Assembly (NCBI GenBank): GCA_947486375.1
Contig: CANKTP010000016.1
Span: 1 to 34,679 of the forward strand
Length of the DNA: 34,679 nt
Source: Candidatus Hydrogenedentota bacterium
GTDB lineage: Bacteria; Hydrogenedentota; Hydrogenedentia; Hydrogenedentales; GCA-2746185
Direction: 5' to 3'
A program made the translations under genes and the position numbers. The notes beneath the pieces were generated by a model. That model was given only the letters and a program-made list of their open reading frames with translations, made no database searches and had not been told where the DNA came from. Shown in pieces: positions 24,541 to 30,353 of the stretch (positions within the stretch are counted from its first letter, which is position 1; the number at the start of each line of letters is the position of its first letter).

Positions 24541-24615
24541 AACTTCACGCCGCGCGTGCCCATGTGATATCGTCACGCGAGCGCGACCACCTTGCCGGGA
24601 GACACGGAGCCAAAC

Positions 24616-25041
24616 ATGGCCGACCGCGAAAAAAAATCGCTTAAGTTCGAGAAATTCGACCCCGTCGTCGTAAGCACCGTGCGCGGCTCGTCGATGATGG
24701 ACGCCGCCGCCGTCGACGATTTCGGCGATCAAATGATCGCCTACGTCAAGGCAAATCCTGCCGTGTTCTTGATGCTCAACTTCAACCGCGTCGAGTATCT
24801 CTCAAGCGCCGCAATCTCGCAACTCATCCGGATCAACGAGGCTGTCAATGCGTCAAATGGAATTCTCCGGCTGTGCGGCCTGTCCAAGCGGATTTACGAA
24901 GTCTTCAAGATGACCAACATGCACGAATTCTTCAAGGTCAACCAAGACGAATCGGCCGAGGAGGCCGTCTCAAGGTTCCAACGCACCGCCAAGCGCGACC
25001 AGGAAGAGAAGGCCTGGTCCAAGCGAATGGAAAAGAAGTAG
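24616..25041 (+). CDS. STAS-domain anti-sigma factor antagonist
   Basis: The 141-residue protein is a single STAS domain with FLMLNFNRVEYLSSAAISQL, where one serine of the SSA motif corresponds to the phosphorylation site of SpoIIAA/RsbV, and ILRLCGLSKRIYEVFKMTNM. It has a lysine-rich tail. It is clearly paralogous to the STAS protein at 29518-29931: LxLNFxxVxYxSSAA, RLCGLSK and VFxxTN are shared. It probably competes for the same or a related HATPase. I take ATG 24616 with GGAG eight bases upstream; a TTG at 24592 would add eight unconserved residues. Confidence 0.9.
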   Translation: MADREKKSLKFEKFDPVVVSTVRGSSMMDAAAVDDFGDQMIAYVKANPAVFLMLNFNRVEYLSSAAISQLIRINEAVNASNGILRLCGLSKRIYEVFKMTNMHEFFKVNQDESAEEAVSRFQRTAKRDQEEKAWSKRMEKK

Positions 25042-25054
25042 TCGCCAGCCCGTA

Positions 25055-26050
25055 CTACCGCTCGGTCGCCTCCAACGATTCGTTCCCCCCTACCCCCGCC
25101 GTTCGCGAACTCCACGCGGCCACGCCCAGCGCGATCAACACGAGCAGCGAACTCGCGATGAAGGCCGCGCCCGGCAGATGGATCGGCGCACGCGCCGACG
25201 TGAAGTACCCGAACAATTGGGTCGCGAGGATCGGCCCGAGAATCGCCCCATCACGGCTTGGACGCTCATCAACGCCCCCTGCACGCCGCCTTGTTCGTCT
25301 GCGGGCACATTCTGCGTAATGAGGGCTTGGAGACTCGGCCCGGCGATGCCCCCGAGGCCCGAGATCACGATGATCGCGTAGATCATCCACCCCTGTGTCG
25401 CGAGGCCGTACATCATGTACGTCGCCGAGACGATGGTCAGGCCGACGAACAACGACTTGCGTTCGCCCCACATGCCGACGATGCGTCCCGTCAGGCCGCC
25501 CTGCACCACGGCGAACACGATCCCCACCAGCGCGAGCGACAGGCCAATGTCGAGCTCCGTCCACTGGAACCGGTACGTGGCGTAAAGCACCCAGGTCCCC
25601 GGCAAGGCGTCGTGCGCGAGCCGATCGAAGGCCATCACGACCGTCAGGCCCAGCACGGCCGGATATTTGCCCAAGACCCCGAGCGCTGAAAGCGGGTTCG
25701 CCCGCGCCCACTCGAAGCGCCGCCGCCGTTCCTTCGGGTGCGACTCCGGCAACACGAAATAGCCGTACAGCGCGTTGCACAACGTCAACACCGCCGCGGC
25801 CATGAACGGCGCCCGCAGGTCCCAATGCCCCAGCAGGCCGCCAATCACCGGCCCGAGGATGAACCCAATGCCGAAACACGCCCCGATGATCCCGAAGTTC
25901 TTCGCCCGGTCCTCCGGCGGGCTGACGTCCGCGATGTAGGCGTTCACCGCCGTGATGTTCGCCCCGGTGATGCTGGCGATTACCCGGCCCAGAAACAACA
26001 ACCCAAGCGTCGGCGCGAAGGACATCAACACATAATCGAGACCGAAATCA
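25055..26050 (-). pseudogene. Decayed MFS transporter, TetA-like: N-terminus missing and one frameshift
   Basis: Reading leftward from about 26050, the frame gives FGLDYVLMSFAPTLGLLFLG and then the middle of an MFS drug-efflux-type transporter. Landmarks are ADVSPPEDRAKNFG, FGIGFILGPVIGG and GERKSLFVGLTI. The first 70 or so residues, including the first two membrane helices, are absent: upstream the frame meets a stop and then an unrelated gene. Near 25237-25240 (a run of four C on the plus strand) one base is missing. After ALMSVQAVMG the protein continues in another frame as AILGPILATQLFGYFTSARA down to a stop at 25055. The frameshift might be a sequencing error in a homopolymer, but the lost N-terminus is independent evidence of decay. 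It converges on the STAS gene, 13 bases away. Confidence 0.8.
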
Positions 26051-26472: not shown

Positions 26473-27231
26473 ATGGATTCCACGATGAGCGGTAGTTCCC
26501 GAGAGTTCGATTTCCAATTCGCCCACGAGCGATTGACGTGGGCGGTGCATACGCTCATCCTCATCAACGTGCTGGCGCTCGCGGCCCAACTCGTCCTCGA
26601 CGTCCCCTTCGGGGGCCGCGGCATCCTCGGCGGGCAAGTCGCCGGTTGGTTGGCGTTTTCGCCCTCGGGGTTTGTTCACGGGGCCGTCTGGACCGCGTTC
26701 ACCTACATGTTCCTGCATTCGGGCCTGATGCACCTGTTTTTCAACATGTTGTCGCTATACTTTTTCGGCCCGGACGTCGAGCGGGCGCTGGGGACGCACC
26801 AGTTCTACCGATACTTCGTGCTATGCGGGGCCGGCGGCGTGTTGCTGAATATTCTCCAGTTGTTCTCGGACCCCCACACGCCCATCATCGGCGCGAGCGG
26901 GGCGACCCTGGGCGTGTTGGTGGCGTTCGCCATGATCGCGCCGGAACGGCAGATTTTCCTGTTCCCGATCCCGGTGCCCATCAACGCCCGCGCGCTGGTC
27001 CTGATCATTGTGGTCATGAATTTCGTCGCGGCGCTTGGGGGGGACTCGGGCACGTCTTGGCTGACGCATTTCGGGGGCATGGGCGTTGGGTATCTCTATA
27101 TGAAGTACCGGCCGAAATTCACGGCGTGGCAGGACAGCCGCCGCAAGGCGGCGGGGCCGAGCAAGAAGGACATGGACAAGCTCGGCGAAGAAATTAATAA
27201 CATCCTGAAGTTCCACAACAAAGAACACTAG
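26473..27231 (+). CDS. Rhomboid-family intramembrane serine protease
   Basis: The 252-residue membrane protein has the rhomboid catalytic pair S142 in IIGASGATLG and H199 in LTHFGGMGVGYLY. It also has the oxyanion-site HLFFN motif (H87-x3-N91), preceded by AFTYMFLHSGLMH. Six membrane helices are expected. The C-terminal 40 residues are charged and cytosolic. It should cut single-pass membrane proteins within or near their helix. The ATG at 26473 has only a weak ribosome site. The gene is followed after 21 bases by a TatA-like/J-domain gene, which is suggestive because a Providencia rhomboid is known to process TatA. Confidence 0.93.
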   Translation: MDSTMSGSSREFDFQFAHERLTWAVHTLILINVLALAAQLVLDVPFGGRGILGGQVAGWLAFSPSGFVHGAVWTAFTYMFLHSGLMHLFFNMLSLYFFGPDVERALGTHQFYRYFVLCGAGGVLLNILQLFSDPHTPIIGASGATLGVLVAFAMIAPERQIFLFPIPVPINARALVLIIVVMNFVAALGGDSGTSWLTHFGGMGVGYLYMKYRPKFTAWQDSRRKAAGPSKKDMDKLGEEINNILKFHNKEH

Positions 27232-27252
27232 TAGGACAACCGACTCCCCCCC

Positions 27253-27585
27253 ATGTTCGGACTCCCCGGCCCACAAGAGTTCATGCTCGTAGTCGCCATC
27301 ATCGCCGTACTGACGATGACGGGACTGTGGCCGCGCATCATCCACGGCTTGCGCGAGTTGCGGGGGGACAACGTCGGGCCGGCCCCGGGGCAATCGCCTG
27401 CCATGCCGGACACGGAGTTGTGTTACAAGTTGCTGGGCGTGGCGCCTTCGGCGCCTTGGGCGGAAATCGAGAAGGCCTACAAGACGAAGGCCAAGAAACA
27501 TCATCCGGACCTGGGCGGCGACGAGGACGCAATGCGGGCGTTGAATGACGCCTACGCCCTTCTCAAGCGGATGCGGAGACCGTAG
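27253..27585 (+). CDS. TatA-like membrane anchor fused to a C-terminal J domain
   Basis: The 110-residue protein has two parts. Residues 1-38 (MFGLPGPQEFMLVVAIIAVL, then an amphipathic WPRIIHGLRELRG) have the layout of a TatA/TatB N-terminus: a short out-facing start, one helix, a hinge and an amphipathic helix. The usual FG before the hinge reads TG here. After a proline-rich linker, residues about 53-108 form a compact J domain with the diagnostic HPD (84-86) in KAKKHHPDLGGDEDAM and the NDAYALL helix. It should recruit an Hsp70 to the membrane. The MFG start is typical of TatA although no strong Shine-Dalgarno is close. The 3' end overlaps the convergent phosphatase gene by 23 bases. Confidence 0.85.
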   Translation: MFGLPGPQEFMLVVAIIAVLTMTGLWPRIIHGLRELRGDNVGPAPGQSPAMPDTELCYKLLGVAPSAPWAEIEKAYKTKAKKHHPDLGGDEDAMRALNDAYALLKRMRRP

Positions 27586-29518
27586 CCGCCGCGGCGGCCG
27601 GGGCGGCGCGGACGGCGACGATGGTCATGTCGTCGAAGGCGTCCTTGCCGTTCATGTGACGCTCGGCATCGCGCTGGAGTTCGGCGAGGATGAGGTCGAT
27701 CGGGTCGCGGTGCAAGCGCTTGAGCAACTCGAGGATTCGGTCCTCGCCGTAAAGCTCCCGTTGGAAATTCTGGGCGTCGGTCAGCCCGTCGCTATAGCCG
27801 ACGATGGTGTCGCCCGGATCGAGCTGGATCTCGAATTCGGTGTACTCGAAATCCTCGACGATGCCGAGCGGATAGCCGGCGGCACATTCGAGAAACCGCG
27901 CCTCGCCGTTTCGCCCGCTGAGCAACACGGCGGGAGGATGCCCCGCCGAGGCAATTCGGACCGTGTTCTCGCCCGCATCGAAGACCATCGCCAACAACGT
28001 GACGAATTTGTGGCTCGCCGCGACGCGCTTGTAGAACTCCGCGTTCGTGCGCCGGAGCAACTCGGCCGGGCCGTGTATCTCGCTGCCGAGCGTGCGCAGG
28101 ATGCTCGCGCACTCCGTCGTCAACAGGGCCGCGGGCAACCCCTTGCCCGTCGCGTCGCCAATGGCCACGGCGATGCGCCCGTCCCCCATCGGGATATAGT
28201 CGAAGAAATCGCCCCCCACCTCGCGGCTCGGCTTGCTCATCCCCGCGAAGCCAAGCCCGGAGATTTCGGGCGCATTTTTCGGCAGGAGCGACTGCTGCAC
28301 CTCCGACGCAATCCGCATCTCGCTCTCGAGCCGCCCGCGGTGCGTCGTCTCCCGCTCGAGGTCGTGCATGTACTCCTGCAGGGATATCGCCATCGTGTTG
28401 TAGGCTTGGGCCAGCCGCTGGAACTCGTCCTTGCGCTTGACGTACAGCCGGTAGTTCAAGTTGCCCTTGGCGAATTCCTGCGCCCCTACCAATAGCGCCA
28501 TGAGCGGCTTGGACAGGCCGCGGCTGATGAACATGCTCACCACCACGCCAAAAAGCAGCATGATGACCCCCACGAGAACGACGATGACCAATTGGCCCAA
28601 TATGTCCTGGACATTCTCCGACGTGCGGTGCTGGATAAAGAGCGCATACGGTTCCCCCGTCAATCCGTTGCGAAGCCGCGACACCACCCCCCGGTCCGGC
28701 AGCAACCCCATCGTCGAGGTGTCTTGGTCTCCCCGCAGGAACTCCGCGCAAAACCGTACGATGCGCGCCCGAATCTCGTCGTCGTCCGGCCGGTCGTCCT
28801 CCCCCACTTCGGCCACCACCATCCCCTCCGTGTTCACCAGCATCAAGCGGCGGAAGTTTTCCAACTGAAAACGTTCAATCAGCGCCTGGAGATCGAAATT
28901 GCGCGTGATCAGGCCAAGCGTGTCCGCGCTGGCGCCCACCAGCACAATCCGCCGACTGTCGGTCCCCGGCACGCCCACGTATTTGTACGGCCGGCCATCG
29001 AGATCGCGCGGCCGGATTTCCTGGACGATCGGTTCCGCCCCGGCCTCGAGCAGCGGCATGAACGCGCTCGATTGCCCCGTGCCCTCGGGGTCGGCCTTGA
29101 ACGTAAATCCGATTCCCGAGGTCCCGATATACACCGTCCCGGCCGCATCCGTCACCCACACATCGTCGATCAGCGGGACTTCTTTCCGCCGGCGAGCTTC
29201 GTCAACGAGGTGCGCAAGCTTCGAGGAAATCTCCTCCGGCGTGTCGCCGGCGCGCTCTGCGTCGGAGACAATCTCCGACACCATGAGCGCATGGATCACC
29301 ATCTGCTCGTCGATGTGGCGCACCACCGTCTTTGGGATCGCGATGCCGAACTCGATATTGCGCCCGGAGAGGTCCGCGAGGACACGGCTTGTGTCCTCGT
29401 ACTGGCTGACGAGGTTCGTGGCGAGCAACCCCACGAGCACGATCGTCATGGCGGCAACCGTGAGGAAGACCAGGTAACTAATCGTGAGGCTGAGCCGCAT
29501 CCGGAACCGAAGGGCCAT
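27563..29518 (-). CDS. Membrane-bound SpoIIE/PP2C-family serine phosphatase with HAMP domain
   Basis: The 651-residue protein has a membrane helix near residues 9-33 (LSLTISYLVFLTVAAMTIVL) and a large outside sensor region to about 315. A second helix follows at about 325-347 (VIVVLVGVIMLLFGVVVSMF), then HAMP (about 348-400), a short coiled coil with SEVQQSLLPK, and a PP2C-type phosphatase domain. Metal-binding aspartates are in REVGGDFFDYIP, IGDATGKGLPAALL, GYSDGLTDA and FDDMTIV. It should dephosphorylate the STAS protein encoded just upstream in response to an extracytoplasmic signal. The ATG at 29518 overlaps the STAS stop (TGATG); the open frame upstream is only the shadow of that gene. 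The tail is Ala-rich. Confidence 0.95.
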   Translation of the reverse strand: MALRFRMRLSLTISYLVFLTVAAMTIVLVGLLATNLVSQYEDTSRVLADLSGRNIEFGIAIPKTVVRHIDEQMVIHALMVSEIVSDAERAGDTPEEISSKLAHLVDEARRRKEVPLIDDVWVTDAAGTVYIGTSGIGFTFKADPEGTGQSSAFMPLLEAGAEPIVQEIRPRDLDGRPYKYVGVPGTDSRRIVLVGASADTLGLITRNFDLQALIERFQLENFRRLMLVNTEGMVVAEVGEDDRPDDDEIRARIVRFCAEFLRGDQDTSTMGLLPDRGVVSRLRNGLTGEPYALFIQHRTSENVQDILGQLVIVVLVGVIMLLFGVVVSMFISRGLSKPLMALLVGAQEFAKGNLNYRLYVKRKDEFQRLAQAYNTMAISLQEYMHDLERETTHRGRLESEMRIASEVQQSLLPKNAPEISGLGFAGMSKPSREVGGDFFDYIPMGDGRIAVAIGDATGKGLPAALLTTECASILRTLGSEIHGPAELLRRTNAEFYKRVAASHKFVTLLAMVFDAGENTVRIASAGHPPAVLLSGRNGEARFLECAAGYPLGIVEDFEYTEFEIQLDPGDTIVGYSDGLTDAQNFQRELYGEDRILELLKRLHRDPIDLILAELQRDAERHMNGKDAFDDMTIVAVRAAPAAAAATVSASA

Positions 29519-29931
29519 CAGGGCGTCGCCCAGGCATCGTCCTCGGCGGCAAGGGCGAGCGCCCGCTCGAATCGTTTGGTCGCCGCCGCGGCGGTGTCGC
29601 CGTCGTGGATGACGAAGAGTTTCTCGAGGTTGGTGATCTGGAAGACCTTGCGGATGTCCTTGGACAAGCCGCACAGGCGCACCGATCCTTCGCCCTTACG
29701 GACCGCGTCATTGACGCGGAGCAACTCCGTCAACGCCGCGCTGGACATATAGTCCACATGCTCGAAATTCAGCAACAAATTCAATCGGGCCTTGGGCTGC
29801 ACGTACGCCATCACCTGGTTGCCGAAATCCGCCACGTTCATCGCATCCAACATGTTCGCATCGAACACGGTGCCGACGGCAATCTGGCCCACGGTCTCGA
29901 ATTTGATTGTCAATTTCGGCGCGCTCATCAT
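29518..29931 (-). CDS. STAS-domain anti-sigma factor antagonist of the partner-switching cluster
   Basis: The 137-residue STAS protein has LLLNFEHVDYMSSAALTELL, containing the phosphorylatable serine of RsbV-like antagonists, and SVRLCGLSKDIRKVFQITNL. When dephosphorylated by the adjacent SpoIIE phosphatase it should bind the adjacent HATPase and free that kinase's target. The first of two adjacent ATGs (29931) is chosen because GAGGTG lies eight bases upstream. It follows the HATPase gene by two bases and overlaps the phosphatase start. It is a paralogue of the STAS protein at 24616-25041. Confidence 0.93.
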   Translation of the reverse strand: MMSAPKLTIKFETVGQIAVGTVFDANMLDAMNVADFGNQVMAYVQPKARLNLLLNFEHVDYMSSAALTELLRVNDAVRKGEGSVRLCGLSKDIRKVFQITNLEKLFVIHDGDTAAAATKRFERALALAAEDDAWATP

Positions 29932-29933
29932 CG

Positions 29934-30353
29934 CTATGACACCTCACAGGCAAAGGTGTTCCGGCTAAACCGCATTTCGAGGCATTTCCCCGCAATGTCG
30001 AACGAAACGTCATCCATGTAATGCTTGATTAGGCACACCCCGCGGCCTCCGAGCGTCTCGCAATCGGGCATCGAGACCCCCGTCGGATCGAAGCCCTCCC
30101 CCTCGTCCCGAATCCGGATCACGCACCGGCCGTCTTCCTCGGAAATCCCCACGTTCACCATCCTCGCCGGATCGCTCTTGTTCCCGTGCTGCACCGCGTT
30201 GACCAGGGCCTCCTCGATGCACAGACGCACGCAGAAACTATGCTCCGCCGTGAACCAATTGTCCTTGACCAAGGCATCGAGCGCCTCGGAAAGAGTACCC
30301 CCGATGGCCTGGACTGTGCTTGGAAAATCCTTGGTATATAACGTCCGTGTCAT
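29934..30353 (-). CDS. RsbW-like HATPase, anti-sigma/serine kinase
   Basis: The 139-residue GHKL ATPase has the N box CIEEALVNAVQHGN, the G1 box RIRDEGEGFDP and the lid/G2 region GGRGVCLIKHYMDDV. The size matches RsbW/SpoIIAB. It should phosphorylate the STAS protein encoded next and bind a sigma factor or another target. No sigma gene adjoins it, so the target is elsewhere; the ECF sigma at 15 kb has its own zinc-finger anti-sigma. It is the first gene of a three-gene unit: HATPase, STAS, phosphatase. Confidence 0.93.
   Translation of the reverse strand: MTRTLYTKDFPSTVQAIGGTLSEALDALVKDNWFTAEHSFCVRLCIEEALVNAVQHGNKSDPARMVNVGISEEDGRCVIRIRDEGEGFDPTGVSMPDCETLGGRGVCLIKHYMDDVSFDIAGKCLEMRFSRNTFACEVS

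Follow-up and report, generated by a model that had tools for sequence, protein, structure and literature searches.

A phylum-wide pairing of a rhomboid protease with a J-domain protein in Hydrogenedentota, with a TatA-like membrane anchor on the J protein

A gene for a rhomboid intramembrane protease and a gene for a small membrane-anchored J-domain protein form an operon in genomes across the phylum Hydrogenedentota. The window, that is the whole stretch of 34,679 nucleotides that was analysed and contig C16 of its genome, contains one example, with the rhomboid gene at 26473-27231 and the J-protein gene at 27253-27585, both on the plus strand. The J protein was found in single copy in 59 of 68 Hydrogenedentota genomes (one genome shows two overlapping pieces), with its gene at a contig edge in two of the 59. 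Both genes lie on one contig in 57 genomes, and in all 57 the rhomboid gene is upstream and on the same strand. Adjacency of the two genes is therefore established, and conservation of this extent (59/68 and 57/57) excludes a chance pairing. The gap between them, measurable in 55 loci, has a median of 39 nt, does not exceed 100 nt in 49 and ranges from 3 to 214 nt in 54; the single outlier, of 2,438 nt, accommodates a further frame of 731 codons in the same orientation between the two genes (L110:5438-7875), and in the other two of the 57 loci stretches of N interrupt the genes or the space between them. The J protein is missing from nine genomes: five of these lack the rhomboid as well, in two the rhomboid gene sits at the end of a contig, and two (G006 and G030) possess only a distant rhomboid paralogue. 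These genomes are draft assemblies, so absent genes may be assembly gaps.

Conservation is much lower for other neighbours: the phosphatase gene downstream of the pair in the window, for example, is near the pair in only 5 of 57 loci. No J protein of this kind was found in viral contigs, nor was the full-length family found outside the phylum among the best 12 candidates from each of 318 genomes; partial J-domain matches in two outside genomes (G163 and G179) belonged to other proteins and were rejected. Likewise, none of the 20 nearest rhomboid loci of other phyla has a J gene nearby, implying that rhomboids of this type generally do not need one. The sequence-only reading, made on the window, had proposed linkage to rhomboid genes as a check on the pairing, and the check bore it out: homologues of the J protein occur phylum-wide beside a rhomboid gene, with the TatA-like part in nearly all.

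The upstream open reading frame matches the rhomboid family (PF01694) with E=2.6e-30 and 105.9 bits, above the cut-off, in agreement with the complete rhomboid gene described earlier. It encodes 252 residues; the start conserved in the alignment of paired orthologues is Met5, so the real start is probably at position 26485. The catalytic serine, Ser142 within GASG (26896-26898, plus strand), and His199 (27067-27069, plus strand), which make up the dyad of the GxSG serine and the histidine of the sixth transmembrane helix, are each kept in 98% of the paired rhomboids. A GlpG-like fold was recovered by Foldseek (2xow, E=8.7e-06, TM-score by target 0.75) from an AlphaFold model of the rhomboid and J-protein frames fused, a model used for fold only, as its artificial linker spans opposite sides of the membrane and both tail and linker have low confidence. 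By family match, dyad and fold, the protein is a predicted active rhomboid protease.

The J protein, encoded 21 nt past the rhomboid stop, has 110 residues and matches a single Pfam family, PF00226, at residues 57-106 (E=1.8e-10); the match recurs in 47 of 47 aligned relatives. Its J domain (27406-27576, plus strand) consists of helices 52-61, 69-83 and 91-108, and its HPD motif (27502-27510, plus strand) is invariant in the 47 relatives. The first description, of a 110-residue J protein with HPD 21 bases behind the rhomboid, is thus confirmed. Zinc-finger and DnaJ C-terminal domains are absent from the Pfam matches across the 110 residues, and the protein would fit class C of the J-domain proteins, with a J domain bearing HPD and no other DnaJ domains. 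Because a client-binding domain is absent, the choice of client must come from the location of the protein. Two full-length Hsp70 genes are encoded in the window genome; they lie at loci L267 and L268, on contigs C15 and C40 of genome G000, with a DnaJ-domain match close to the C15 copy.

The location would be set by the N-terminal part. AlphaFold (mean pLDDT 84) gives a transmembrane helix at residues 7-23 (27271-27321, plus strand), in which Glu9 is nearly invariant (43/47), a kink at Gly24 and a second helix at residues 25-37 (LWPRIIHGLRELR), followed by the three helices of the J domain. The Gly24 hinge and second helix (27322-27363, plus strand) are TatA-like: Gly24 is present in 47 of 47 members, and the helix is amphipathic, with a mean hydrophobic moment of 0.64 against 0.37 for shuffled sequences. 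Transmembrane helix, kink and amphipathic helix are retained in nearly all homologues. In 46 of 47 members the residues after the transmembrane helix carry a net positive charge, which predicts, by charge only, an N-terminus outside and a J domain in the cytosol. A short transmembrane helix, a hinge, an amphipathic helix and an outward N-terminus (again as judged by charge) are together the layout of TatA, TatB and TatE.

The likeness to TatA was also found in profile-profile comparison. The N-terminal 42 residues matched a profile of 18 Hydrogenedentota TatA sequences with a probability of 96 and a score of 41 over 32 columns only, and the probability was still 93 once the first residues had been removed. 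Controls reached a probability of at most 14% and a score of at most 17.3: the scores of 40 column shuffles and of windows over the transmembrane segments of the rhomboid alignment did not exceed about 17.2, and that of YajC, another family with a single transmembrane helix from the same phylum, was 14. The Pfam TatA_B_E model (PF02416) found no match in the window J protein in a search of its own genome with E up to 10, and among the 47 members it matched one, at E=2.3, without reaching the cut-off. The FG (or GP) hinge motif is also absent, residues 23-24 being TG, with T, A, S or K preceding the glycine among members. The "TatA-type" N-terminus of the sequence-only reading thus stands as TatA-like, by layout and profile probability, but not as TatA: membership of the family was rejected, since the Pfam model is blind to this N-terminus and the hinge lacks phenylalanine. 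The N-terminus resembles TatA in layout, and possibly by descent also.

The rhomboid, in turn, carries a C-terminal tail, which in GlpG topology lies in the cytosol, as would the J domain. The tail has the motif GEEINNILKF in the window (27184-27213, plus strand; consensus GEAVDNIFKF); of 56 paired rhomboids, 49 match a loose pattern for it, and it was not seen in the 17 unpaired rhomboid paralogues of the phylum that were read. At least one of the seven paired rhomboids missed by the pattern keeps a variant (L073, DPDNIFEF). A pattern search gave one match in each of 36 genomes, most of them in the rhomboid tail; about six lay outside it, as judged by position, three of the six having been read. 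A role for the tail in docking is tempting, but pairing cannot depend on it: the pair persists without the motif in five genomes, of which G027-G029 belong to one genus and G018 and G019 to a second. In G018 and G019 (loci L074 and L075) the rhomboid match crosses a stop codon near the C-terminus, and the tail may have been lost recently. Nor is the motif an invention of Hydrogenedentota, an idea that was rejected, as rhomboids of other phyla (L244-L263) have a longer DUF6576 tail (VDxILDKI...SLTxxE) at the equivalent place, of which the Hydrogenedentota tail is the first part only, the second half being gone and the J gene following.

The wider gene context adds a link to protein export. Of 50 loci with more than 700 nt of upstream sequence, counted among L060-L119, 36 have a signal peptidase I gene as the immediate upstream neighbour of the rhomboid gene, in the same orientation; a representative matches PF10502 at 8.6e-38. 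In most of these, signal peptidase I is preceded by a gene for a secreted-looking TPR protein, with a glgC-like gene further up in some. The window itself has neither signal peptidase I nor the TPR gene adjoining the pair, and the best signal peptidase match of its genome is on contig C1. The rhomboid-J pair is therefore the core, with signal peptidase I and TPR genes as frequent, looser surroundings; the link to signal peptidase I suggests a site where exported and membrane proteins mature. In the window, a STAS-domain protein is encoded upstream of the pair (24592-25041, plus strand) and a HAMP-SpoIIE phosphatase downstream (27563-30353, minus strand), followed by genes that by eye resemble those for another STAS protein and an anti-sigma kinase; these genes around the pair look, partly by eye, like a partner-switching cluster. 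An MFS transporter frame (25055-26031, minus strand) aligns with its Pfam model only from position 79 onwards and overlaps another frame, and this gene may be frameshifted or truncated.

The most economical reading is that the J protein serves to recruit DnaK for the rhomboid, because it lacks a client-binding part and its fixed partner is the rhomboid. The J protein may thus bring DnaK to the site of the rhomboid or of export for membrane-protein processing or quality control, a reading to which we give slightly less than an even chance; domains, adjacency, the order of the genes, the shared tail and the predicted topology are what the analysis shows, and contact, DnaK recruitment and client handling are what we infer. 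Acting from the periplasm, the rhomboid would cut, or hold, membrane segments that are unstable or have failed to assemble. In the same membrane the J protein, with its N-terminus outside, would be anchored in TatA fashion by the short transmembrane helix and the amphipathic helix, displaying the J domain on the cytosolic face, where DnaK would be recruited and its ATP hydrolysis triggered. DnaK could then grip cytosolic parts of rhomboid clients or of cleavage products, which would be kept soluble, pulled out or passed on. A more specific proposal, which we hold more tentatively, is a rhomboid-DnaK machine, in which the TatA-like-anchored J protein would couple intramembrane proteolysis to pulling by Hsp70; it would be a bacterial counterpart of the rhomboid processing of Mgm1, which is driven by the import motor, and of derlin-linked extraction.

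A shared operon could also reflect co-regulation only. Signal peptidase I, rhomboid and J protein might be co-expressed for export and membrane maturation without forming a complex, DnaK being recruited near the inner membrane generally. The order TPR, signal peptidase I, rhomboid and J protein in many genomes agrees with such an envelope-biogenesis operon, as does the seemingly unrelated glgC-like gene further upstream in some; against it, signal peptidase I and TPR genes lie outside the operon in several lineages, including that of the window, whereas rhomboid and J protein remain together in 57 of 57 loci, and we consider this explanation rather unlikely. A tether at the Tat translocon, in which the TatA-like part would dock on TatC or co-assemble with TatA and bring DnaK to folded Tat substrates, appears improbable. 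It would account for the resemblance, in profile, to the phylum's own TatA, and TatA, TatB and TatC are all encoded in the window genome. However, 46 of 47 J proteins escape the Pfam TatA model, TG takes the place of the FG hinge, the amphipathic helix has 13 residues only, and TatA or TatB matches are absent from the contig of the pair in every genome. The earlier suggestion of Hsp70 tethering divides accordingly: placement at the membrane is a natural inference from the invariant HPD, the charge pattern (N-terminus out, C-terminus in) and the missing client-binding domain, while the Tat translocon as the site is unsupported, the genome having its own TatA, TatB and TatC elsewhere and the commonest further neighbour of the pair being signal peptidase I and no tat gene.

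Least probable, in our judgement, is the switch put forward in the sequence-only reading, by which the rhomboid cuts the transmembrane helix of the J protein and so releases or alters the J domain. A single-pass protein with its N-terminus out and C-terminus in does have the topology of a rhomboid substrate, and the transmembrane helix of TatA is a known one: in Providencia, TatA bears eight extra residues that are removed by the rhomboid AarA (PMC3712462). The J protein, on the other hand, has no N-terminal extension, most members beginning at most about 9 residues from the transmembrane helix. The recognition motif is not conserved either, a loose simplification of the published motif (PMC2941825) occurring in 26 of the 47 members where shuffled N-termini give an expectation of 33, and no small P1 residue is conserved near the outer end of the helix in the 47 members. 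Gly24 lies at the cytosolic end, away from the active site, which faces the periplasm. Instability of the transmembrane helix also counts for some rhomboid substrates (PMC2941825). Overall, cleavage of the J protein by the rhomboid is not favoured by these sequence features, and the proposed release found no support in the absent extension or in the motif count.

Both domains, membrane J proteins and quality control by rhomboids are already known. Three features are new as far as the open-licence literature goes: the constant partnership of rhomboid and J protein, a J protein anchored in TatA-like fashion, and the association with signal peptidase I. No published operon of a rhomboid with a J-domain protein or DnaJ was found in that literature, in line with the earlier statement that no description of the pairing was known, and DnaJ and Hsp70 are both absent from the text of a 2025 rhomboid review. 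The operon partner of the rhomboid, present in single copy across the phylum and equipped with a domain for recruiting Hsp70, points to a specific link from intramembrane proteolysis to DnaK, an undescribed connection of membrane proteolysis with chaperones in a poorly known phylum. A TatA-like membrane anchor would here be reused for placing a chaperone, and the signal peptidase I link would place the rhomboid-J pair at protein export.

Several known systems share parts of this arrangement. Tim14/Pam18 of the mitochondrial import motor, which works with a membrane translocation machine, likewise has an N-terminal transmembrane helix and a J domain at the extreme C-terminus, and Tim14 (2guz) is among the Foldseek matches of the J protein. 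The likeness is one of layout, orthology not being indicated by sequence search: the listed PDB sequence matches do not include Tim14, the best being Sis1, T antigens and DnaJ. In E. coli, the class C proteins DjlA and, tail-anchored, DjlB and DjlC also tie a J domain to the inner membrane and place Hsp70 there (PMC8215388); the window J protein differs in having an N-terminal TatA-like transmembrane helix with an amphipathic helix, a C-terminal J domain and a fixed operon with a rhomboid. The AarA-TatA pair of Providencia stuartii has in common a rhomboid with a TatA-type N-terminus that faces outward, whereas in the window protein a J domain replaces the TatA tail, and extension, conserved motif and Pfam TatA match are missing. 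The nearest relatives found outside the phylum are the rhomboids with DUF6576 tails, whose VDxILDKI-type motif is in an equivalent position; in Hydrogenedentota the tail is shorter and the J gene comes next, while in the outgroup loci it is nearby in 0 of 20. Among quality-control systems, B. subtilis YqgP is an adaptor that presents clients to the ATP-driven FtsH (PMC7231995), and the Shigella rhomboids GlpG and Rhom7 initiate the clearance of orphan membrane proteins (PMC7232013); the main texts of these two papers do not mention DnaK. With both systems the proposed function shares the initiation of membrane-protein turnover by a rhomboid, and with YqgP also partnership with an ATP-driven machine, the difference being that here the partner would be DnaK, recruited through a dedicated J protein.
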